Both the position numbers and the translations under genes were made by a program. A DNA stretch of 64,000 nucleotides from Roseococcus sp. SYP-B2431 (GTDB taxonomy: Bacteria > Pseudomonadota > Alphaproteobacteria > Acetobacterales > Acetobacteraceae), in NCBI RefSeq assembly GCF_004336745.1, contig NZ_SJXD01000022.1:558001-622000 (forward strand). Reading direction: 5' to 3'. The notes under the pieces are model-generated. The model had not been told where the DNA came from, made no database searches, and was given only the letters and a program-made list of their open reading frames with translations. This document shows, piece by piece, positions 3,885 through 56,551 of this stretch (the first letter of the stretch is position 1; each line of letters begins with the position of its first letter).

Positions 3885-4727
3885 TTATTTTGTGAGCAGG
3901 CGGACGACCCCGTCGAGCTGGTCAAGATCCTTATAGGCCAGCACCACCTGTCCACCGCGGGTGCCGTGACGAATGGTCACCTTGAGGCCGAGATGCCCGC
4001 TGATCTGGCGCTCCAGGGCGCGCGTCTCGGCGTCCGTCTTCGGCTGGCGCGGGGCGGTACCAAGATTCTTCGACGCCGCCAGCGCCTCAGCCTGGCGCAC
4101 GTTCAGCCCGCGATCCACCACCATCAGGGCGAGCGCGATCGGATCCTTGGCCGTGAGCAGGGCACGGGCATGGCCGGCGGTCAGCGCGCCCTCCCGCAAG
4201 AGGTCGCGCACGCGCTCGGGGAGGTTCAGGAGGCGCAGCGTGTTGGCGACGTGCGGCCGGCTCTTGCCCACGGCCCGGGCCAGCGCCTCCTGGGTCAGGC
4301 CGAACTGCTCGGTGAGACGGCCGTAGCCCTCCGCCTCCTCCAGCGCGTTGAGATCCTGCCGCTGGAGATTCTCCACAAGCCCAGCCGCCATCGCCTCGCG
4401 GTCGGAGAACTCACGGACGAGGGCGGGAACATCGTGCAGGCCGGCCGCCTGCGCGGCACGCCAGCGGCGCTCGCCGCCGATGATCTGGAAGCGGTCCGGC
4501 CGGCCCTTCATCGGGCGAACCAGGATGGGCTGGAGCACACCGTGCTCGCGGATCGAGGCGGCGAGTTCAGCCAGCGCCGCCTCGTCCATGGCTTCTCGCG
4601 GCTGGAACGGCCCCGGTTCCATCGCGCCGACGGGCAGGGTGCGCAGGCCAGGGGCCGATGGGCTGACCGCGGCAGCGTCGCCGAGCAGGGCGGAAAGGCC
4701 ACGGCCCAGGGCAGGGGGCTTGCTCAT
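3885..4727 (-). CDS. parB: Chromosome-partitioning protein ParB
   Basis: ParB CTPase and parS-binding protein, 280 residues. Landmarks in order: the N-terminal ALGRGLSALLGD, the CTP-binding GERRWRAAQ patch near residue 85, the LVENLQRQDLNALEEA segment, the helix-turn-helix LTQEALARAVGKSRPHVANTLRLL, and a C-terminal dimerisation region. It loads on parS, slides, and recruits SMC to organise and segregate the origin region; ParA drives the movement. The gene overlaps parA by 4 nt (ATGA) and lies downstream of it. Its cognate parS sites are only about 1.4 kb upstream, at 6105-6157. Confidence 0.96.
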   Translation of the reverse strand: MSKPPALGRGLSALLGDAAAVSPSAPGLRTLPVGAMEPGPFQPREAMDEAALAELAASIREHGVLQPILVRPMKGRPDRFQIIGGERRWRAAQAAGLHDVPALVREFSDREAMAAGLVENLQRQDLNALEEAEGYGRLTEQFGLTQEALARAVGKSRPHVANTLRLLNLPERVRDLLREGALTAGHARALLTAKDPIALALMVVDRGLNVRQAEALAASKNLGTAPRQPKTDAETRALERQISGHLGLKVTIRHGTRGGQVVLAYKDLDQLDGVVRLLTK

Positions 4728-5551
4728 GCGTCGCGGCCTTCGGACTTGGCAAGCTCGCGCCGGCGAGCGCGGTGGCGTCGGAGGAACTCGGCGGCCAGGC
4801 GGGCATAGGCCTCGGCACCGGGGGAGCGGGGATCGTAATACGTCACCGGCAGGCCGTGCGACGGCGCCTCCGAGACGCGGACGTTGCGGGGGATCACCGT
4901 GTCGTAGACCTGCGCCTTGAAGTAGGCTCGCACGTCGTTCTCCACCGCTTCGGAGAGATTGTTGCGGCGATCGAACATGGTCAGCACGATGCCGTCGAGA
5001 CGCAGCGCGGCATTGTGGCCGGCACGGACGCGGTCGAGCGTCTGGATGATTTGGGAGACACCCTCGAGCGCGTAGAATTCGGCCTGGAGCGGGATCATCA
5101 CGGCATCGGCGGCGATGAGTCCGTTCAGCGTCAGTAGGCTCAGCGACGGCGGGCAGTCGAGCAGGATCCAGTCGACCCCCTTCAACGCCGCCGCCCCACT
5201 GGCCAGGGCATCGCGCAGGCGGGATTCGCGGCGGGTGAGGTCGACCATCTCGAGTTCGCCACCCGCAAGATTCGGGTCCGCGGGGACGATGGAGAGATTA
5301 GGAACCGCGGTCGGACGCAGCACCTCGGCCAGGGATCGCCCCTCCACCAGCATGGCGTAGCTGCCGGCACCACGGGCCGCGCGCGCGATTCCGAGGCCGG
5401 TGGAGGCATTGCCCTGCGGGTCCAGGTCGATCAGCACGACGCGGTGCTTGGCGGCCAGCGCGGCGGCCAGGTTCACGGCCGTCGTGGTCTTCCCGACGCC
5501 GCCCTTCTGATTGGCCAGGGCGAGGACTTGGTAGGTGGCAGGGTCAGGCAC
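4724..5551 (-). CDS. parA: Chromosome-partitioning ATPase ParA (Soj)
   Basis: Deviant Walker-type ATPase of 275 residues that forms a DNA-bound dimer gradient and pulls ParB-parS complexes poleward. The deviant Walker A KGGVGKTTT is near residues 15-23; VVLIDLDPQGNASTGLG and DWILLDCPPSLSLLTLN are the A' and B motifs. The start is a GTG at 5551 that overlaps the last 8 nt of rsmG (rsmG stop 5546-5544), a compact arrangement typical of the rsmG-parA-parB operon. The nearest in-frame ATG would remove the nucleotide-binding core. Confidence 0.96.
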   Translation of the reverse strand: MPDPATYQVLALANQKGGVGKTTTAVNLAAALAAKHRVVLIDLDPQGNASTGLGIARAARGAGSYAMLVEGRSLAEVLRPTAVPNLSIVPADPNLAGGELEMVDLTRRESRLRDALASGAAALKGVDWILLDCPPSLSLLTLNGLIAADAVMIPLQAEFYALEGVSQIIQTLDRVRAGHNAALRLDGIVLTMFDRRNNLSEAVENDVRAYFKAQVYDTVIPRNVRVSEAPSHGLPVTYYDPRSPGAEAYARLAAEFLRRHRARRRELAKSEGRDA

Positions 5552-6158
5552 CGGCAGGGCGGATCTCGCTGAGGCGGAGGATGGTCGATTGAGCGTCGGT
5601 TCGGCTCTGGAACCGCTCGACCCGCATAAACCAATGCGGAGCGGCCTCCGTCAACTCCGCATCGACCGAGCGGCCCTTGGGAAAGAGCGCCACGCCGTCC
5701 GGCCCGAGGATTCGGGCGGCTTGCGGAAGGAGACTCTTCAGTGGCGCGAGGGCGCGAGCGGTGACGACACGGACGGGTGGGAGCTTGGCATCGTCGATTC
5801 GCATTGGATGGACGCACACATGCGAGAGGTCGAGCGCACGGCTCGCCTCAATGAGAAAGGCGCACTTCCGGCGATCTGATTCGACCAGATGCGTTTCCTG
5901 CTGGCGCCCGATGGCGATGACGAGGCCGGGCAATCCGCCGCCGGAACCGAGGTCCGCCAGCGGACCGTCAGGCAGCAGGGGGAGGAGCTGCCAGGAATCC
6001 AGAACGTGCCTCTGCCAGAGCTGCTCCTCCGGCGCGTTGGCCACCAGATTGATCCTGGCGTTCCAGGTCCGGAGAAGGGACAAATAGTCCCGGAGCTTGA
6101 CCTCGGCTTCACGTGAAACATCGAGCGTCGCTGGTTCAGCCTGTTTCACGTGAAACAC
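5544..6158 (-). CDS. rsmG: 16S rRNA (guanine527-N7) methyltransferase RsmG (GidB)
   Basis: SAM-dependent methyltransferase that modifies G527 of 16S rRNA, 204 residues. Landmarks: [23 protein letters not shown] and the SAM-binding [17 protein letters not shown]. The proposed start is GTG at 6158 (reads MFHVKQ...), which overlaps the end of mnmG by 23 nt; a second in-frame GTG lies at 6149. No ATG exists before the conserved core. The first codons coincide with a perfect parS palindrome, and codons about 13-18 with a second, imperfect one, so this coding region doubles as a centromere. It lies in the mnmG-rsmG-parA-parB order common in bacteria. Confidence 0.93.
6105..6120. other. parS-like ParB-binding site (imperfect)
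   Basis: The 16-mer GGCTTCACGTGAAACA differs at two positions from the bacterial parS consensus TGTTTCACGTGAAACA and keeps the central TTCACGTGAA core. It lies inside rsmG, where it encodes VSREA, and its first base is 22 bp from the end of the perfect site at 6142-6157. Spaced parS clusters near rsmG-parAB are common. ParB binding of this weaker copy is inferred, not shown. Confidence 0.72.
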
Positions 6159-49021: not shown

Positions 49022-49660
49022 TCAGCCGTCCAGGCCCGCCAGGTGGGCGGCGAAGCGCGGCATGCCCTCGATATGCGGCACGCCGAGTCCGGGCACGATC
49101 CCCAGCACCCGGCAGCCCGCCGCCATGCCGGCCGCGGCGCCGGGGGCGCTGTCCTCCACCACCAGGCAGTCCTCGGGCCGGACGCCGCAGGCACGGGCCG
49201 CGGCGAGGTAGAGGTCCGGCGCCGGCTTGGGCAGCTCGACATCCTCGAAGCTGAAGATGCGGCCCTCGAAGTAGTGCGCGAAGCCGAGCACGCGCATCTT
49301 CACGGCCAGCTCGCCGCGCGAGGAGTTGGAACAGAGCGCCATGGGAAGGCCGGCCGCCCGCACGGCCTCCAACGCCGCCCCGGCGCCCGGGATCGGGCGA
49401 AGGCCGGTGGAAAGCGCCGCCTCGATGCGGCGGCCAAGCGCCCGGGACCAGCCGGCCGGCAGCCTTCCGATGCGGGCCTCGATCTTCGGCTCCATGTCGG
49501 GCAGCGCCAGACCGAGGAACTCGTGCTGCGCCTCATGCGGGGTCATGGGCCAGCCGAGGGCGGTCAGCTCCTCGGCGACGATGCCGTTGGCCACGCCCTC
49601 GCTATCGGCCAGCACGCCGTCGCAGTCGAAGAGGACGGCCCCGATGGCGGCGGTCCTCAT
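49022..49660 (-). CDS. HAD-superfamily phosphatase (beta-phosphoglucomutase/phosphoglycolate-phosphatase-like)
   Basis: 212 residues. Catalytic DxD motif VLFDCDGVLADSE near residue 12, a helical cap, motif II ALCSNSSRGELAVKM, motif III LPKPAPDLYLAAA, and motif IV CLVVEDSAPGAAAGMAAG. Sub-class IA with a cap like that of phosphoglycolate phosphatase. Substrate unknown. ATG 49660 overlaps the hemH stop (ATGA), placing it in the hemE-hemH transcription unit. Confidence 0.9.
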   Translation of the reverse strand: MRTAAIGAVLFDCDGVLADSEGVANGIVAEELTALGWPMTPHEAQHEFLGLALPDMEPKIEARIGRLPAGWSRALGRRIEAALSTGLRPIPGAGAALEAVRAAGLPMALCSNSSRGELAVKMRVLGFAHYFEGRIFSFEDVELPKPAPDLYLAAARACGVRPEDCLVVEDSAPGAAAGMAAGCRVLGIVPGLGVPHIEGMPRFAAHLAGLDG

Positions 49661-50739
49661 GCCGCCTTGGCGAGCAGGGCATTGGCCTTGGCATGGGGGC
49701 AGTCGCTGTGCTCGCGCGGGCATTGGCGGGCGCCGGCGAAGCTGCAGAGCGTGCGCGCCGAGTGCTGCGTCCGCCGCGTGAGATCGGCCAGCGCGGCGAT
49801 GAAGCCGGCATCGGCATTCTGGGCCGGCACGCGGAAATAGCCGGGAATCCCGTGCTGTTCGGCGACATGCCGATATTCCACATCCAGCTCCACCAGCGTC
49901 TCGGAATGCTCGGAGACGAAGGCGATGGGGCAGATCAGCACCGCCACCTTCTCCCCCGCGGCCCGCACGATCTCGGCCTCCGTCGAAGGTCCGATCCACT
50001 TCTGCGGCGTCACGCGCGACTGGTAGCAGACCACGTGGTCCAGCCCCGGCAAGTCCATGGCCGCGACCACGGCCGCCATGGTCCGCTCGACCTGCCATTG
50101 ATAGGGATCGCCCGCCTTGACGATCCGCTCCGGCAGGCCGTGCGCCGAGAAGAGCACGCGCAGCTTCACCTCCGCCGGCAGTTCCGCCCGCGCCTTCGCA
50201 TGGGCCTCCTCCACCAGCCGGGCCGTCGCCTGGGCGAAGCCGGCATCCGAATGGAAGCAGCAGAGGGTGGAGGTCGGCAGCGCGAGCCCGATGGCGGCGC
50301 TGGCCTCGTTCCAGGCGGTGACGGAGCTTCCCGTCGTGGTCGAGGAATATTGCGGATAGAGCGGGATCAGCAGGACTTCGTCCGCGCGCCAGTCCTTCAC
50401 CGCGCGGGCGGCCTCGTCCGAGAAGGGGTGCCAGTACCGCATGGCGACGAAGCAGCGGTACTCCGTGCCGGGTTCCCTCGCATTCAGCGCGGTTTCCAGG
50501 GCCCGGGCCTGCTCCTCCGTCAGCTCGCGCAGCGGCGACCTGCCGCCGATGATGGCGTAGTTCTCCTGCGCCGCCTTGACCCGCTTCCAGGCGATCAGCC
50601 GCCCGAGCCAGGGCCGCACGAAATCCGGCACCCGCAGGATCGCCGGATCGGTGAAGAGGTTGACCAGGAAGGGCCGCACCGCCTCGGGGGCATCGGGCCC
50701 GCCGAGGTTGAACAGCACCACCGCCACGCGCCGTGTCAT
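49657..50739 (-). CDS. hemH: Ferrochelatase HemH with C-terminal cysteine cluster
   Basis: Inserts Fe2+ into protoporphyrin IX to give haem, 360 residues from ATG 50739. Core: VVLFNLGGPDAPEAVRPFL at the start, PLYPQYSSTTTGSS, FSAHGLPERIVKAGDPY with the metal-binding His, CYQSRVTPQKWIGPST and CPIAFVSEHSETLVELD with the catalytic His/Glu pair. The C-terminus has three cysteines (Cys332, 340, 347: CX7CX6CP), a pattern that could bind a [2Fe-2S] cluster as in Caulobacter ferrochelatase. In an operon with hemE (upstream) and the HAD gene. Confidence 0.95.
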   Translation of the reverse strand: MTRRVAVVLFNLGGPDAPEAVRPFLVNLFTDPAILRVPDFVRPWLGRLIAWKRVKAAQENYAIIGGRSPLRELTEEQARALETALNAREPGTEYRCFVAMRYWHPFSDEAARAVKDWRADEVLLIPLYPQYSSTTTGSSVTAWNEASAAIGLALPTSTLCCFHSDAGFAQATARLVEEAHAKARAELPAEVKLRVLFSAHGLPERIVKAGDPYQWQVERTMAAVVAAMDLPGLDHVVCYQSRVTPQKWIGPSTEAEIVRAAGEKVAVLICPIAFVSEHSETLVELDVEYRHVAEQHGIPGYFRVPAQNADAGFIAALADLTRRTQHSARTLCSFAGARQCPREHSDCPHAKANALLAKAA

Positions 50740-50918
50740 CTGCAATTCCTGGTCATCCAGAGCATCATCCGATCAGACGGAATCGTTTGGTCGGATCAAG
50801 ATGCTCGCAAAAACAAATCGCTGGAGGCTTCGCAGTGAGCCCTTGCGAACGAAGAAGGCTCCAGCGGGACATACCCCCTCTCGCCTCGGTTTCAACCCAC
50901 CCCTGACCGGCCCATCGC

Positions 50919-51956
50919 TCAGGCGGCCCGCAGAAGCTTCATCAGCGCGGAAACGTGTTCGGGCGGCGTCGGCTGCTCCACGCCGTGGCCGAGATTGAAG
51001 ATGAAGGGCCGCCCCTTCATGGCCTGCAGGATGCCCTGGGCCTGGCGCTGGAGGGCCTCGCCGCCGGCCAGCAGGGCCTCCGGGTCCAGATTGCCCTGGA
51101 GGGCCGTGGCGGCCGGGATATGCGCCGCCGCCCAGGCCGGGTCCATCGCCGTGTCCATGGCCACCGCCTGCACGCCCGTCGCGGCCGCGTATTCGACCAG
51201 CATGGGCCCGGCCAGCCGGGGGAAGCCGATCACCGGGATATCCGGCCGCGCCGCCTTCAGCGCCGCCCGCAGCCGCTTCGTGGGGGCGATCACCCATTCG
51301 CGGAAGGCGCTCGGCGGCAACTGGCCGGCCCAGCTGTCGAAGATCATCAGCACCTCGGCGCCCGCCTCGGCCTGGGCCAGGAGATAGGCCAGGGTGGCCG
51401 CCTCGAGCTTCGCCATAAGCTCGCAGAAGAAGGCAGGGTCCTCGTGGACCAGCCGGCGGGCTTGCTTGAACTCGCCGCCGCCCTTGCCCTCGACCATGTA
51501 GCAGGCGACCGTCCACAGCCCGCCCGCGAAGCCGATGAGCGTGGTCCCGGGGTGCTCGGCCGCCAGCGCCGCGCGGACCCGCCGCACCGTCCCCATGATC
51601 GGTGCCGCCCTGGCCACGGCGCCCTCGACGTCCAGCGCCGCCAGCCCCGCGCGATCGCGGATCGGCGGCAGGCGCGGGCCTTCCCCTTCCGCGAAGGTCA
51701 GGCCCTGTCCCATCGCCCAGGGCACGATCAGGATGTCCGAGAAGAGGATCGCCGCATCCACGCCGTAGCGCCGGACCGGCTGCAGCGTGACCTCGGCCGC
51801 CAGCTCCGGGTTGAGGCAGAGCTGCATGAAGCTTCCGGCCTGGGCCCGCGTCGCGCGGTACTCGGGCAGATGCCGCCCTGCCTGGCGCATGAGCCAGGCG
51901 GGTGGCGGCCAGACGCTCTCCCCGGAGAGCACCTGCAGAACGGGTTTGGCTGACAT
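50919..51956 (-). CDS. hemE: Uroporphyrinogen decarboxylase HemE
   Basis: Decarboxylates the four acetates of uroporphyrinogen III to give coproporphyrinogen III, 345 residues. Signature: PPAWLMRQAGRHLPEYRATRAQAG with the two active-site arginines, ILFSDILIVPWAMGQGLTFAEGEGP with the catalytic Asp, and the C-terminal IFNLGHGVEQPTPPEHV. ATG 51956. The gene is read away from the noncoding region to its right, which is the oriC position in many alphaproteobacteria. Confidence 0.97.
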   Translation of the reverse strand: MSAKPVLQVLSGESVWPPPAWLMRQAGRHLPEYRATRAQAGSFMQLCLNPELAAEVTLQPVRRYGVDAAILFSDILIVPWAMGQGLTFAEGEGPRLPPIRDRAGLAALDVEGAVARAAPIMGTVRRVRAALAAEHPGTTLIGFAGGLWTVACYMVEGKGGGEFKQARRLVHEDPAFFCELMAKLEAATLAYLLAQAEAGAEVLMIFDSWAGQLPPSAFREWVIAPTKRLRAALKAARPDIPVIGFPRLAGPMLVEYAAATGVQAVAMDTAMDPAWAAAHIPAATALQGNLDPEALLAGGEALQRQAQGILQAMKGRPFIFNLGHGVEQPTPPEHVSALMKLLRAA

Positions 51957-52263
51957 GGCCGGGACCAAACCAGAGAAATAAGAAAAGAAGAAGAGTCTGT
52001 GGTGGTAGATAGGGCCTGTGGATAACGGGTAGGCAATTCGCCCCGGAACCATCCACAGGCTTGTCCCTGGGATTGACTCGACGGGAATCCCCCTGGCCGC
52101 CAGCCCGTCCCGCCGATGTCCCGAATCCCGGCCCTGGCCTTCCGGGATCATACAGGCCGGGGAAAGATGTTCCGGTTATCCCCGCTGACCCGGCCGGCAT
52201 TGCGGCGGGCCCCGATCCATCCCCATGATCCCCGGAACACAGGCAATTCATCCACAGGCCCCC
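51957..52263. other. Candidate chromosomal replication origin (oriC) between hemE and ppsR
   Basis: 307 bp with no gene, between divergent hemE and ppsR, the conserved oriC position of alphaproteobacteria such as Caulobacter. It holds a perfect DnaA box (52017-52025, minus orientation), TCATCCACA at 52248-52256 (one mismatch), weaker CCATCCACA at 52049-52057 and TTATCCCCG at 52176-52184, and a purine/A-rich tract at 51972-51995 that could unwind. CcrM-type GANTC sites occur at 51993-51997 and 52075-52079. The strings AGGCAATTC and CCCGGAAC are each repeated at the two ends. Functional origin activity is inferred. Confidence 0.75.
52017..52025 (-). other. Perfect DnaA box
   Basis: TGTGGATAA is the complement of the consensus DnaA box TTATCCACA. 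It lies 22 nt to the right of the A-rich tract in the hemE-ppsR gap, so its position suits an initiator-binding site flanking the unwinding element. Confidence 0.8.
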
Positions 52264-53151
52264 ATGGCGATCCGCCAAACCAACCTTCACCTGGTCTCCG
52301 ACAGCACCGGCGAGACGCTGAACAGCATCTCGCGCGCCGTCATCGCCCGTTTCGACAGTCCGGGCATCGTGCAGCACCGCTGGTTCCTGGTCCGCTCCCG
52401 GATGAACCTCGACCGCGTGATCGAGGGCATCGAGCAGGAGCCGGGGCCCGTCATCTTCACCCTGGTCGACCGCAGCCTGCGCCACACGCTGGAGGAGACC
52501 TGCTCGCGCCTCGGCATCTCCTGCCTTTCGGTGCTCGACGGCGTCACCGAGCTGCTCCAGGCCGAGATCGGCGCCCGGGCCATGGAGAAGCGCGCGGCCC
52601 AGCACGTCATGGACGCGGATTATTTCCGGCGGATCGACGCCATGCACTACGTGCTCAGCCACGACGACGGCCAGGGCACGGCCGGCATCGCCAATGCGGA
52701 CGTCGTCCTCGTCGGCGTCTCGCGCAGCAGCAAGACGCCCACCTGCTTCTATCTCGCCAACCGCGGCGTGAAGGCGGCCAATATCCCGCTCGTCCCGGGC
52801 GCGGCCCTGCCGCCCGAGCTCGAGAACCCGCCCTGCCCCGTGGTGGGCCTGACCATCGACGCCGTCGCCCTGCTCGACATCCGCCGCCATCGCCTCCGCA
52901 TCATCGGCGCCGACGGCATGCGCATGGGCGAGAGCGAATATGTGGACCCCGAGGCGGTGAAGAAGGAGATCCTTGCGGCCCGCCGCCTCTGCGCCGCCCG
53001 CGGCTGGCCCGTCATCGACGTCACGCGCCGCTCCATCGAGGAGACGGCGGCCACAGTGATGCAGCAGGTCGATCTCTGGCACGCCAAGCACGCCCGGCGG
53101 GCCGCGGCCCCGGAGGACCCGGCCGCCTCGATCCTGGGCACCAGGGCGTGA
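52264..53151 (+). CDS. ppsR: Pyruvate,phosphate dikinase/PEP synthase regulatory kinase-phosphorylase (PpsR, DUF299)
   Basis: 295 residues. ADP-dependent Ser/Thr kinase and Pi-dependent phosphorylase that inactivates and reactivates PEP synthase or PPDK. Features: [19 protein letters not shown], the P-loop [21 protein letters not shown] near residue 150, and [17 protein letters not shown]. The ATG at 52264 is the first codon after the oriC candidate. It is the orthologue of the gene called RP001 in Rickettsia and CC_0001 in Caulobacter, the classic right-hand neighbour of the origin. Coupled to maf. Confidence 0.93.
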
Positions 53152-53741
53152 GGCTCATCCTCGCCTCGCAGAGCCTTGCCCGCCGCGCCCTGCTCGAGGG
53201 CGCGGGGCTGGAATTCGACTCCCTGCCCGCGTCGGTGGACGAGGCCACCATCAAGGAGAGCGCCAGGGCCGAGGGCCTGCCGCCGGCCGAGGCGGCGGCG
53301 CTGCTGGCCGATGCGAAGGCCTCGCGCATCGCCAGGCGCCATCCCGACGCGGTCGTCATCGGTGCCGACCAGCTCCTGGTCTGCGAAGGGGAATGGTTCG
53401 ACAAGCCGGTCGATGTCGAGGCCGCGCGCGCGCATCTGCACCGGCTGCGCAACCGCGCGCACGAGCTCGTCACGGCGACCGTCGTCTGGCGGAACGGCGG
53501 GCGCGCCTGGCATCACGTCGCCACGCCGCGGCTCGCAATGCGCGATTTTTCGGAGGCCTTCCTCGACGAATACCTCGCCAGGGAAGGCGCCTATGTGACC
53601 TCCAGCGTCGGGGCCTATCGGTTGGAGGGGCTGGGGATCCAGCTCATGCGGGAGATTCGCGGCGACCACTCCGCGATCCTGGGGCTGCCGCTGCTGCCGC
53701 TGCTCGCCTATCTGAGGGAGTCGGGCGTCATCCCAAGGTAG
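53148..53741 (+). CDS. maf: Maf-family nucleotide pyrophosphatase
   Basis: 197-residue Maf protein, a house-cleaning nucleoside-triphosphate pyrophosphatase that hydrolyses noncanonical or m5U/dTTP/UTP-type nucleotides. Motifs: [19 protein letters not shown] at the start, the metal-binding [12 protein letters not shown] with catalytic Asp, and [30 protein letters not shown] near the end. GTG start at 53148 overlaps the ppsR stop. ppsR-maf(-aroE) is the usual order rightward of alphaproteobacterial oriC; here aroE is not next. Confidence 0.94.
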
Positions 53742-53859
53742 CATCCGAGGGGGCTTTGCCCCGGGCAAGCCTGCGGGAAGCTTGCCTTCCTGCAGCACCG
53801 ATCGGTTGCCGGCGGGCGAGCGCCGCGCTACCAAAAATCAAAACCAGGAACTGTCCCAG

Positions 53860-54831
53860 ATGAACATCACCCGCCGCGCCGCATTCGGCACCGCCCTTGC
53901 CATGCCCGTTCTCGCCACGCCCGCCCTCGCTCAGGCTTGGCAGCCCACGCGACCTCTGCGCCTGATCGTCACCTATCCGCCCGGCGGCGTGAACGACATC
54001 GTCGGCCGCATCATCGCCGACAGTCTCGGCCGCGAGCTCGGCCAGCCCGTCATCATCGAGAACCGCGCGGGCGCCGGCGGCAATATCGGCACCGTCGCGG
54101 CAGCCCAGGCCGAGCCCGACGGCTATACGATCCTCTTCGGCACCACGGCCATGTTCGGCGTGAACCCCATCCTCTACGCCAGTTCCGGCGTGGACGCCGC
54201 CCGCGACTTCGTCAGCCTCGGCACCGTCGGCGAGGTCGCGAACGTCCTCTCCGTGGTGCCCGAGCGCGTGCGGGCCACCAATCTCCAGGACTTCATCCGG
54301 GAGGCGAAGAGCCGGCCACTCGTCTACGGCTCGGTCGGCAACGGCTCCTCCTCGCATCTCTCGGCGACGGTCTTCCTGCGCATGGCCGGCATCGAGGCGA
54401 CCCACGTGCCCTATCGCGGCTCCTCGCCCCTCGTGGCCGCCATGCTGGCGAAGGAGGTGGATTTCGGCTTCGACACCACCGCCACCTCCACCGCGCAGAT
54501 CCGCTCGGGGTCCTTGCGTCCGCTGGCGGTGACCACGACGCGCCGCGCCAGCGCCCTGCCCGACGTGCCGACCATGATCGAGGGCGGGTTGGCCGGCTAT
54601 GATCTCGGCATCTGGTTCAACCTCGGCGTGGTGAAGCGCACGCCGGAGCCGATCGTCGCCCGCCTGACCGAGGCGCTGTCCAAGGCCCGCGACGAGCAGA
54701 CCGCCCAGCGTCTGCGGACCGCCTTCGTCGAGCCCTTCATCGTGCCGGCCGCGGAGAACCAGAGCTTCGTGGCGCAGAGCGCGGCCCGTTGGCAGGACAT
54801 TGCCCGCCAGGCCCGGATCGCAATCGACTGA
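53860..54831 (+). CDS. Bug-family tripartite tricarboxylate receptor
   Basis: 323-residue periplasmic binding protein from ATG 53860. Signal peptide MNITRRAAFGTALAMPVLAT has a twin-arginine TRRAAFG motif. The binding core is TYPPGGVNDIVGRIIADSLG, IENRAGAGGNIGTVAAAQAEPDG and VPYRGSSPLVAAMLAKEVDF. It is the third Bug gene in the window. It stands where aroE-coaE-dnaQ would be expected beside ppsR-maf and so marks a break in the ori-side synteny. No TctAB partner present. Confidence 0.92.
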   Translation: MNITRRAAFGTALAMPVLATPALAQAWQPTRPLRLIVTYPPGGVNDIVGRIIADSLGRELGQPVIIENRAGAGGNIGTVAAAQAEPDGYTILFGTTAMFGVNPILYASSGVDAARDFVSLGTVGEVANVLSVVPERVRATNLQDFIREAKSRPLVYGSVGNGSSSHLSATVFLRMAGIEATHVPYRGSSPLVAAMLAKEVDFGFDTTATSTAQIRSGSLRPLAVTTTRRASALPDVPTMIEGGLAGYDLGIWFNLGVVKRTPEPIVARLTEALSKARDEQTAQRLRTAFVEPFIVPAAENQSFVAQSAARWQDIARQARIAID

Positions 54832-54861
54832 TCCTGCCGGATTTGGCATGATCCGGCCCGC

Positions 54862-54910
54862 GCGGGCGTGCCGGAATGGTAGACGGAAGGGACTAAAATT
54901 CTCGGGACTT
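54862..54910 (+). pseudogene. 5' half of a tRNA-Leu gene (left junction)
   Basis: The sequence GCGGGCG TG CCGGAATGGTAGACGG followed by AAGGGACT reads as the acceptor 5' strand, D-arm and start of the anticodon arm of a tRNA-Leu. From ACTAAAATT onward it departs from a tRNA and no T-arm follows. Its 7-nt acceptor strand pairs with the 3' acceptor CGCCCGT at 56604-56610 (one G-U), showing that the two fragments were once one gene. Confidence 0.75.
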
Positions 54911-55143
54911 TAGCCCCACCCCGGTCCTATCTCCGCAGCTAGGAAGCGTCCTTCCGCAAATCCTGTGCAATACAGCCGCATCTATATTAGATCGGGAAGC
55001 GTCCTATGTGACAGGCTTTAGATTGCGCATCAAAATTCGCTGAAATCACCTTCTTTGGCCCGCAAGAATCCGGCCTGAGGCGGGCCAATAACTGGCTTAC
55101 TAGTTCCCGCTAGGCAGCGCTTCGGTGCAGCTTGCTGCACCAT

Positions 55144-55812
55144 TCACTCACCATGTTTCCGCCGGGCCTCTTCCTCCTCCTCCGCTCGTCGTTCGTACTC
55201 TTCCTCAGCCCGTCGTTCGTTGAGCGCATCTCTTTCTAAATCAACATCGTACTCGGGAGGTGGTTCCTCTGAACGATTCGGGGGAGTCGGGGGAGGAGGG
55301 ATGCTAGTGTTCTCCGGCTGTTCCATGTGCCTAAGAGGGCCAGCTACGGTGTCGCCCCATTCGGACAGACCCCATCCATAAGATCGGCTTGCAACAAAAC
55401 GACCGTTCCCATAGCGAGCAAGTTGGTTTCCCAGATCGGTTGTAGCAGCCCCTGGCCTTCCTCTCCCGAGGTCAAAGCTTCCTTCGATATTGAGCATTTC
55501 CGCCAAATCGATGGGACGGATACGACGTTGCTCACGAGAAAGAATCTCAGCGGCCTTTTCGGCAATCATTGCTCCTCTGGGAGGCATTTTTGCAACCGAT
55601 GGCCCCGGTACTCTGGTAGGATAAGCCGCTGAATCCAAGGTGAATGCTGTAATGCGCCTAGGCTTTTCAGGCTCCCCCGCCAATTTACGGAGGACCGCGA
55701 GGGAAGTCCTAAGGTCGTTGACCCAACGCTCTGCTTCTTCCGCGTCAATCCGCAGTTGAGCAGCTCTCTCCTCCGCCTCACTCAGCTCGGCTTCGAGTCT
55801 GTCAATATCCAT
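55144..55812 (-). CDS. Hypothetical protein with coiled-coil start and winged-helix-like centre
   Basis: 222 residues of unknown family. Residues 1-45 are a strongly predicted coiled coil (LEAELSEAEERAAQLRIDAE). Residues about 80-150 (KAAEILSREQRRIRPIDLAE ... GNQLARYGNGRFVASRSYGWG) look like a HARE/winged-helix module. The C-terminus is proline-rich and then Glu/Arg-rich (EEEYERRAEEEEEARRKHGE). Base composition and codon use are AT-richer than its neighbours, in line with horizontal acquisition. It may bind DNA or act as an accessory protein of the island; no proof in the sequence. Confidence 0.7.
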   Translation of the reverse strand: MDIDRLEAELSEAEERAAQLRIDAEEAERWVNDLRTSLAVLRKLAGEPEKPRRITAFTLDSAAYPTRVPGPSVAKMPPRGAMIAEKAAEILSREQRRIRPIDLAEMLNIEGSFDLGRGRPGAATTDLGNQLARYGNGRFVASRSYGWGLSEWGDTVAGPLRHMEQPENTSIPPPPTPPNRSEEPPPEYDVDLERDALNERRAEEEYERRAEEEEEARRKHGE

Positions 55813-56449
55813 CTTTCGATTCCCCGGCTCAAAACGACTATAGATGCCATCACTCGAACCACAAAGGGTGAATGAGTGAGGGGATGCTAGATAGGCCTTG
55901 ACCGGCGCGATCGAACAACCGCACTGTCCTGAGCATGACGGTGGCTGCGGAATCGGCGGAACAGCCCGGGGTGGTCAATACCCCGGGCCGCCGTGAAGTG
56001 GATCATCATGCCGATTTCCCGGCGTGCGTCTCCCCGGAAGGGAGCCGGATCAACCCCGAGCGGTTGGATTCTGGCCCGCCCGAATGCGGAGGTCAAGGGA
56101 ATAGCAACCGCATAAAGGCATATGCATATGCACACTATCCCCCTACCCTCTCCCCTCCCTCTCGTGCAAGTCCGCGCATATGAGCGCACGCGCCTCGGGC
56201 ATCTTGAATACGTCATCAAACACGTGCGCAGCTGGCCCGGGAGCGGTCGCCGCTATCGCGGGGTGCCGCTCACGGCCGGTGATCCGACTCTGTTCTGACT
56301 GGAGTGGTTGGGCGGCGGCAAGACCGTCGCCCATCTGTTCGGCGTTTCAGGTGCAGCTATAACTACACCGCATCCCCCAGCGATCGCTTGGTTCGACAAT
56401 ACCCCGTCACAGGGTGTTGGCCGTCACAACGAGGGGGGTTGTGGCATCC
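55813..56449. other. 637-bp stretch without a supported gene
   Basis: Open frames here are short, on both strands, and lack recognisable features or good ribosome sites. It contains a CATATGCATATG repeat at 56118-56129 and mixed composition. It probably represents the decayed right part of the inserted element and the tRNA promoter just before 56450. Confidence 0.55.
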
Positions 56450-56536
56450 GCCCGGATGGCGAAATGGTAGACGCAAGGGTCTTAAAAACCCTGACCTTTC
56501 AAGGGTATGCGGGTTCGAGTCCCGCTCCGGGCACCA
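56450..56536 (+). tRNA. tRNA-Leu (anticodon UAA), CCA encoded
   Basis: Full type II tRNA of 87 nt. Acceptor GCCCGGA pairs with TCCGGGC, discriminator A, and CCA is encoded. D-arm GAAATGGTAGAC, anticodon stem AGGGT/ACCCT with loop CTTAAAA (anticodon TAA), a long variable arm, and T-arm GCGGG-TTCGAGT-CCCGC. Reads UUA and UUG leucine codons. It lies 15 nt upstream of the 3' half of another tRNA-Leu. Confidence 0.95.
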
Positions 56537-56551
56537 TGTATTGTGACGATG

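Follow-up and report, generated by a model that had tools for sequence, protein, structure and literature searches.

A putative chromosomal replication origin between hemE and ppsR in Roseococcus sp. SYP-B2431, with GANTC-rich counterparts in related Acetobacteraceae

In Roseococcus sp. SYP-B2431 (GCF_004336745.1; 4.71 Mb in 31 contigs), we analyzed a 64-kb stretch of one contig (C12:558001-622000, called the window below), in which a gap of 307 bp at positions 51957-52263 separates the starts of hemE (51956, minus strand) and ppsR (52264, plus strand). This gap is very probably the chromosomal replication origin (oriC), as judged from synteny, clustering of DnaA boxes compared with controls, a flanking unstable tract, a nearby parABS system and the lack of a RepC match. 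The same evidence supports the first-pass annotation, which had considered an oriC between these two genes likely. Of the features of a hemE/RP001-type oriC, the hemE-ppsR gap itself, a box cluster beyond chance and an AT-rich tract of low stability were found. The exact starts of hemE and ppsR are presumed ones taken from homology, since both frames stay open further upstream. By its ppsR, the genome has its nearest named relative in Roseococcus pinisoli (91% in the best segment, 89% over 295 columns) and thus belongs to the Roseococcus group of the Acetobacteraceae.

Conservation of the gap, its DnaA boxes and its unstable tract

To compare the gap among relatives, 110 loci were gathered: the window, 29 loci from a search of the family (ppsR was matched in 122 of 150 family genomes, and the best 30 were used, leaving out the own copy among them) and 80 named loci (80 retained of 406). 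The genes hemE and ppsR are divergent neighbours in 109 of these loci, and the single exception (L126) has just 59 bp of sequence before ppsR. Eighteen gaps were removed as duplicates because the same genome was present in both collections, which left 91 distinct gaps with lengths of 293-883 bp. They contain 24 exact DnaA boxes, spread over 23 gaps, and no copy of the reversed motif. With up to one mismatch, 136 boxes occur in 81 of the 91 gaps, against 3 for the reversed motif. In the 681,569 bp covered by the window together with the other 90 loci, 24 of 25 exact boxes fall in the gaps, which make up 4.5% of this sequence (30,955 bp); the lone exact box outside is in L118. Among 57 representatives less than 70% alike, all 12 exact boxes are in the gaps. 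In an alignment of 89 gaps (two longer than 460 bp were dropped), CCTGTGGATRACGGGG and CCATCCACAGG are conserved, and weak boxes of the TATCCCC type are repeated toward ppsR.

In the window, we found the perfect box TTATCCACA and the one-mismatch box next to ppsR (TCATCCACA) that had been noticed earlier, as well as weaker boxes at 52049, 52176 and 52217 (Table 1), of which two had been mentioned before. For scoring single boxes, a weight matrix was derived from the boxes of relatives, to which the window and three other loci (L044, L045 and L079) did not contribute. When the gap was shuffled 1000 times, its counts of TTATCCACA at 0, 1 and 2 mismatches (1, 2 and 4) were reached in 0, 0 and 2 cases, respectively. 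Genome-wide, the exact box is rarer than its reversed control (7 vs 21 copies), and the same is seen with up to one mismatch (146 vs 232). Pairs of such one-mismatch boxes within 300 bp exist in at least four places besides the gap (by eye, among 100 of the 146 matches listed). Counting mismatches is therefore not enough to distinguish the gap, whereas the weighted box-cluster score does so.

For that score, stretches of 300 bp were evaluated with a matrix built without the window's clade of 26 rows and without the gap of a near-complete relative (G088). The scans covered 660 kb of the own contig, 800 kb of a congener (G124), 1.2 Mb of G088 and parts of the own contig C23. The hemE-ppsR gap came first on the own contig (68.4, with the runner-up at 45.9), in the congener (58.1; runner-up 52.4) and in G088 (57.3; runner-up 48.4). 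This ranking is the same as with the matrix used for single boxes, from which only the window, L044, L045 and L079 were omitted and in which the other Roseococcus rows and the G088 gap were kept.

The purine/A-rich tract described in the first-pass annotation was confirmed at 51972-51998 and is likely the DNA-unwinding element. The strong box at 52017 is nearby and points at the tract across GGCCC. In 79 of the 91 gaps, the 30 bp of lowest stability begin at most 60 bp from hemE. The paired repeats noted at the ends of the gap do exist (AGGCAATTC at 52031 and 52241; CCCGGAAC at 52042 and 52231), but they are present in only 1 and 3 of the 91 gaps, respectively. We therefore rejected them as functional elements; they are probably incidental, except for the adjoining DnaA-box repeat CATCCACAGGC.

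GANTC sites and a possible role of methylation

The gap has four GANTC sites (51993, 52075, 52085 and 52123), and not two as counted at first. This number was reached in 38 of 2000 shuffles, and other stretches of the contig equal or exceed it, being modest evidence of enrichment for the window's own gap. In the whole window the motif is depleted (105 sites vs 249 expected from dinucleotide shuffles), in line with the under-representation reported for Alphaproteobacteria (PMC3973325). The densest stretch on the scanned contig is C12:636710-637073 (L013:6710-7073), an intergenic region by crude gene calls with 11 GANTC in about 300 bp, 26 kb from the putative origin; the gap is thus not the densest there.

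Taken together, the 91 gaps contain 394 GANTC in their 30,955 bp (12.73/kb), compared with 577 in the 650,614 bp around them (0.89/kb), a 14.4-fold enrichment. The 57 representatives show 11.0/kb in the gaps and 0.91/kb around, and when gaps with at least 7 sites are left out, the remaining 72 still retain 203 GANTC in 23,705 bp. In 69 of the 91 loci no other 300 bp is as dense in GANTC as the gap, in 11 it is tied and in 11 it is lower; three gaps are free of GANTC. Numbers go up to 13 per gap: eight rows of Roseomonas sensu stricto have 11 to 13, and a Belnapia group of four rows has 8 to 11. By parsimony on the ppsR tree, the state of at least 7 sites requires 7 changes, which suggests that the enrichment was apparently gained or lost several times.

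A putative CcrM-type enzyme was identified in this genome and in the family by its RAMA domain alone, which we take to be a domain found in CcrM. The domain is present in a frame of 378 amino acids in the own genome and in 143 of 150 family genomes, and among 14 control genomes it was found only in Caulobacter. A GcrA homologue is also present in the own genome, in a search that matched one archaeal control as well. For SeqA, none of the 150 family genomes has a match above the cut-off and one has a match below it. From what characterizes a Dam/SeqA-type system, the enrichment of methylation targets was found in the origins of the family, and the SeqA reader was not. The GANTC density in relatives' gaps suggests that methylation may help to time replication in this group. 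It is conceivable, but rather doubtful, that in Roseomonas, Belnapia and Roseicella (more weakly in Roseococcus) GANTC arrays were repeatedly built up so that CcrM methylation gates initiation independently of SeqA.

The sequence shows clustered boxes, a tract of low stability, conservation, GANTC enrichment and, elsewhere in the genome, a CcrM-type domain; DnaA binding, melting, firing and any methylation control we infer, as follows. DnaA-ATP would first bind two boxes, the strong one at 52017 and the outer one at 52248, and the weaker TTATCCCCG-like boxes between these two would then be filled. A DnaA filament would start at the 52017 box, which is oriented to hemE, spread over the adjacent A-rich tract and melt it, and DnaB would be loaded there. 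The GANTC sites, which are found among the boxes and next to them, would be CcrM targets, left hemimethylated by the passing fork.

Chromosomal context and alternative explanations

The sole ParB above the cut-off and the sole parS found are 46 kb from the gap, with parA, parB, gidB and trmE at 3.9-9.4 kb inside the window. With up to two mismatches, two parS matches were found in the window vs 0.01 expected by chance. The two-mismatch copy begins 37 bp before the perfect one (6105-6157), both inside the gidB frame beside parA. The sampled part of G088 has one parS at 553,757, 13 kb from ppsR, and no parS was found in the sample of the congener (58% of its contig). RepC (PF03428) had no match in the own genome, in a search of unproven sensitivity since no control genome passed the cut-off either. 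A secondary repABC replicon, which had been raised as a possible objection, was rejected considering the lack of a RepC match and the presence of parABS, gidB and trmE in the window. Control by CtrA as in the Caulobacter origin (Cori) was also rejected: sites of the form TTAA-N7-TTAA with up to one mismatch are absent from the gap, and the only match of the window is at 56550.

The GC skew, proposed earlier as a check, turned out to be weakly informative. On the own contig, which ends at 670 kb, the cumulative skew is lowest at about 630 kb, some 20 kb from the gap (610 kb). In the 5.48-Mb contig of G088, represented by 60 samples, a two-arm model beats each of 100 permutations, and the detrended cumulative skew has its minimum in the ppsR bin and its maximum near 3.2 Mb, about opposite ppsR. 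The outward strand switch of core genes holds locally (hemH-hemE vs ppsR-maf) but does not extend along the contig.

Several results weigh against an origin at this gap. The best skew break of the own contig (630 kb) accounts for 11% of the variance, and that of the congener is at 518 kb (R2 0.36), 74 kb from ppsR (592 kb). In G088, an origin boundary at 5.31-5.40 Mb (R2 0.304) fits as well as one at 0.558-0.649 Mb (R2 0.302; ppsR at 0.567), and resampling picked 5.40 Mb in 40 of 100 cases and the ppsR side in 2. Given these conflicting breaks and weak fits, the skew is in weak and coarse agreement with an origin at the gap and does not decide. The coding-strand share over the contig, based on crude gene calls, has no clear flip at the gap, and a chromosome-wide strand switch there was discarded. 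The box-cluster scans covered parts of genomes rather than whole ones; the margin of the gap over the second cluster is small in the congener, and a cluster near 292 kb of C23, at another exact box, scores 46.5. Finally, 2 of the 91 gaps are without a box of TCCACA core.

The gap could instead be a mere divergent promoter, with DnaA and GcrA (the latter at GANTC) acting as regulators of hemE and ppsR and the origin placed elsewhere. Both genes indeed start from it, a GcrA homologue exists, and GANTC is commoner in noncoding than in coding DNA of C12 (2.53/kb vs 1.20/kb, by crude gene calls). We consider this very unlikely, since none of the scanned parts of the own genome exceeds the gap in box-cluster score, the GANTC density of the 91 gaps is well over that of the ordinary noncoding DNA of the contig, and the unstable tract is at the same place in relatives. 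In many other bacteria the origin is beside dnaA. Such a location was tentatively suggested for Rhodospirillum centenum (PMC2890560). Here, dnaA is on a different contig (C23), so the map leaves proximity possible, but the 20 kb around dnaA reach a box-cluster score of 22.6 at best vs 68.4 in the gap, which makes an origin at dnaA hardly credible, and we rejected it.

Even with the origin placed at the hemE-ppsR gap, the conserved GANTC sites might have arisen as a side effect of weak DnaA boxes or of the base composition rather than as selected CcrM targets. Some sites do abut a box (24 of 394 within 3 bp), but just 6 overlap a box of TCCACA core. Among 340 distinct 17-mers, the N is fairly even (99 T, 97 C, 75 G and 69 A) and the flanking bases are close to random. 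Shuffling the gaps with their dinucleotides preserved gave 141 GANTC on average and at most 168 in 50 shuffles, far from 394, and seven palindromes of the same composition are enriched only 0.6 to 2.5 times. For GGNCC and CGNCG the values are 1.0 and 0.4. In 51 gap pairs 72-93% alike, which are not independent, the fixed bases are kept in 91-95%, the N in 85% and the other columns in 78%. With these results, the by-product explanation seems improbable.

On both sides of the gap the gene order continues with hemH beyond hemE and maf beyond ppsR. Directly after maf, where Caulobacter presumably has other core genes, there is a TctC-type receptor gene (53782-54831). A low-GC stretch (54001-56550; 62% at 54001-56000) is found near a tRNA-Leu(taa) at 56450-56536, with a frame of 222 amino acids (55144-55812) that has no Pfam match. 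This stretch, on the right side of the origin, is possibly a small island. The Rfam scan of the window revealed nothing but one tRNA.

Table 1. Positions of the main features in the window.
Feature	Positions	Strand	Basis or remark
Putative oriC (hemE-ppsR gap)	51957..52263	.	synteny, DnaA-box cluster, unstable tract
A/purine-rich tract, likely DNA-unwinding element	51972..51998	+	least stable 27-mer of the 64-kb window; contains one GANTC
DnaA box TTATCCACA, perfect, oriented to the unstable tract	52017..52025	-	box with up to one mismatch at this column in 46/89 aligned gaps
DnaA box CCATCCACA	52049..52057	+	matrix score 13.9
Three GANTC sites (52075, 52085, 52123)	52075..52127	.	motif scan
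Weak box TTATCCCCG	52176..52184	+	matrix score 8.7
Weak box CCATCCCCA	52217..52225	+	matrix score 10.6
Weak box TGATCCCCG	52226..52234	+	matrix score 5.4; box with up to one mismatch at this column in 21/89 aligned gaps
DnaA box TCATCCACA, one mismatch, adjoins ppsR	52248..52256	+	matrix score 16.7
hemE, uroporphyrinogen decarboxylase, left boundary	50919..51956	-	PF01208, 363 bits
ppsR (RP001/COG1806, kinase-pyrophosphorylase), right boundary	52264..53151	+	PF03618, 280 bits
hemH, ferrochelatase	49657..50745	-	PF00762
maf	53145..53741	+	PF02545
parB	3885..4727	-	PF02195, PF17762, PF23552
parA	4724..5551	-	PF13614
parS, perfect TGTTTCACGTGAAACA	6142..6157	+	only parS with up to one mismatch on 660 kb of contig

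Comparison with known origins

The origin of Caulobacter crescentus, Cori, was experimentally identified between hemE and CC0001, and the hemE-RP001/COG1806 gap was reported as the origin of Rickettsia prowazekii too (PMC1914354). The gap analyzed here, flanked by the same gene pair, is thus very probably an ordinary alphaproteobacterial oriC, a further example of the hemE-RP001 type already known from Caulobacter. With it, a putative origin is placed for the Roseomonas-like Acetobacteraceae, a little-studied group, and its conserved anatomy is open to direct tests. GANTC is also shared with Cori: for Caulobacter and close relatives, "several GANTC motifs" at the origin have been reported (PMC3973325), and by count the relatives studied here have up to 13 per gap. 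The Cori subtype is under CtrA control, unlike the gap here, which is without a CtrA site at up to one mismatch. In Sphingopyxis and other Sphingomonadaceae, the predicted oriC is near hemE, with conserved putative DnaA boxes and a DNA-unwinding element (PMC4741004); these components are alike, their order is different, and GANTC goes without mention in the portion of that paper considered here. The basal unwinding system of Bacillus subtilis consists of DnaA boxes plus DnaA-trios (PMC6669920). Here, a strong box points at a neighbouring unstable tract in which purine triplets, judged by eye, are frequent; this recalls unwinding of that type, which we take as a lead.

As to methylation, published answers on CcrM and initiation differ. 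In Caulobacter, CcrM is reported as not required for the control of initiation (PMC3973325), whereas ori2, the repABC origin on the dicentric chromosome of Agrobacterium, over-initiates upon CcrM depletion (PMC11514494). Our literature search, within the chosen terms and with thin coverage in one of the searches, found nothing on GANTC arrays at Acetobacteraceae origins. The variation of GANTC counts across the group offers a natural series in which to study if initiation in Alphaproteobacteria is under the control of CcrM. In the oriC of E. coli, adenine-methylation targets are dense and interspersed with DnaA boxes. The putative origins described here are alike in having dense targets among the boxes, with GANTC and a CcrM-type domain in place of GATC and Dam. 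If the gating by CcrM were true, it would be a counterpart of the E. coli sequestration on a primary, DnaA-driven chromosome of Alphaproteobacteria, unlike in Caulobacter.
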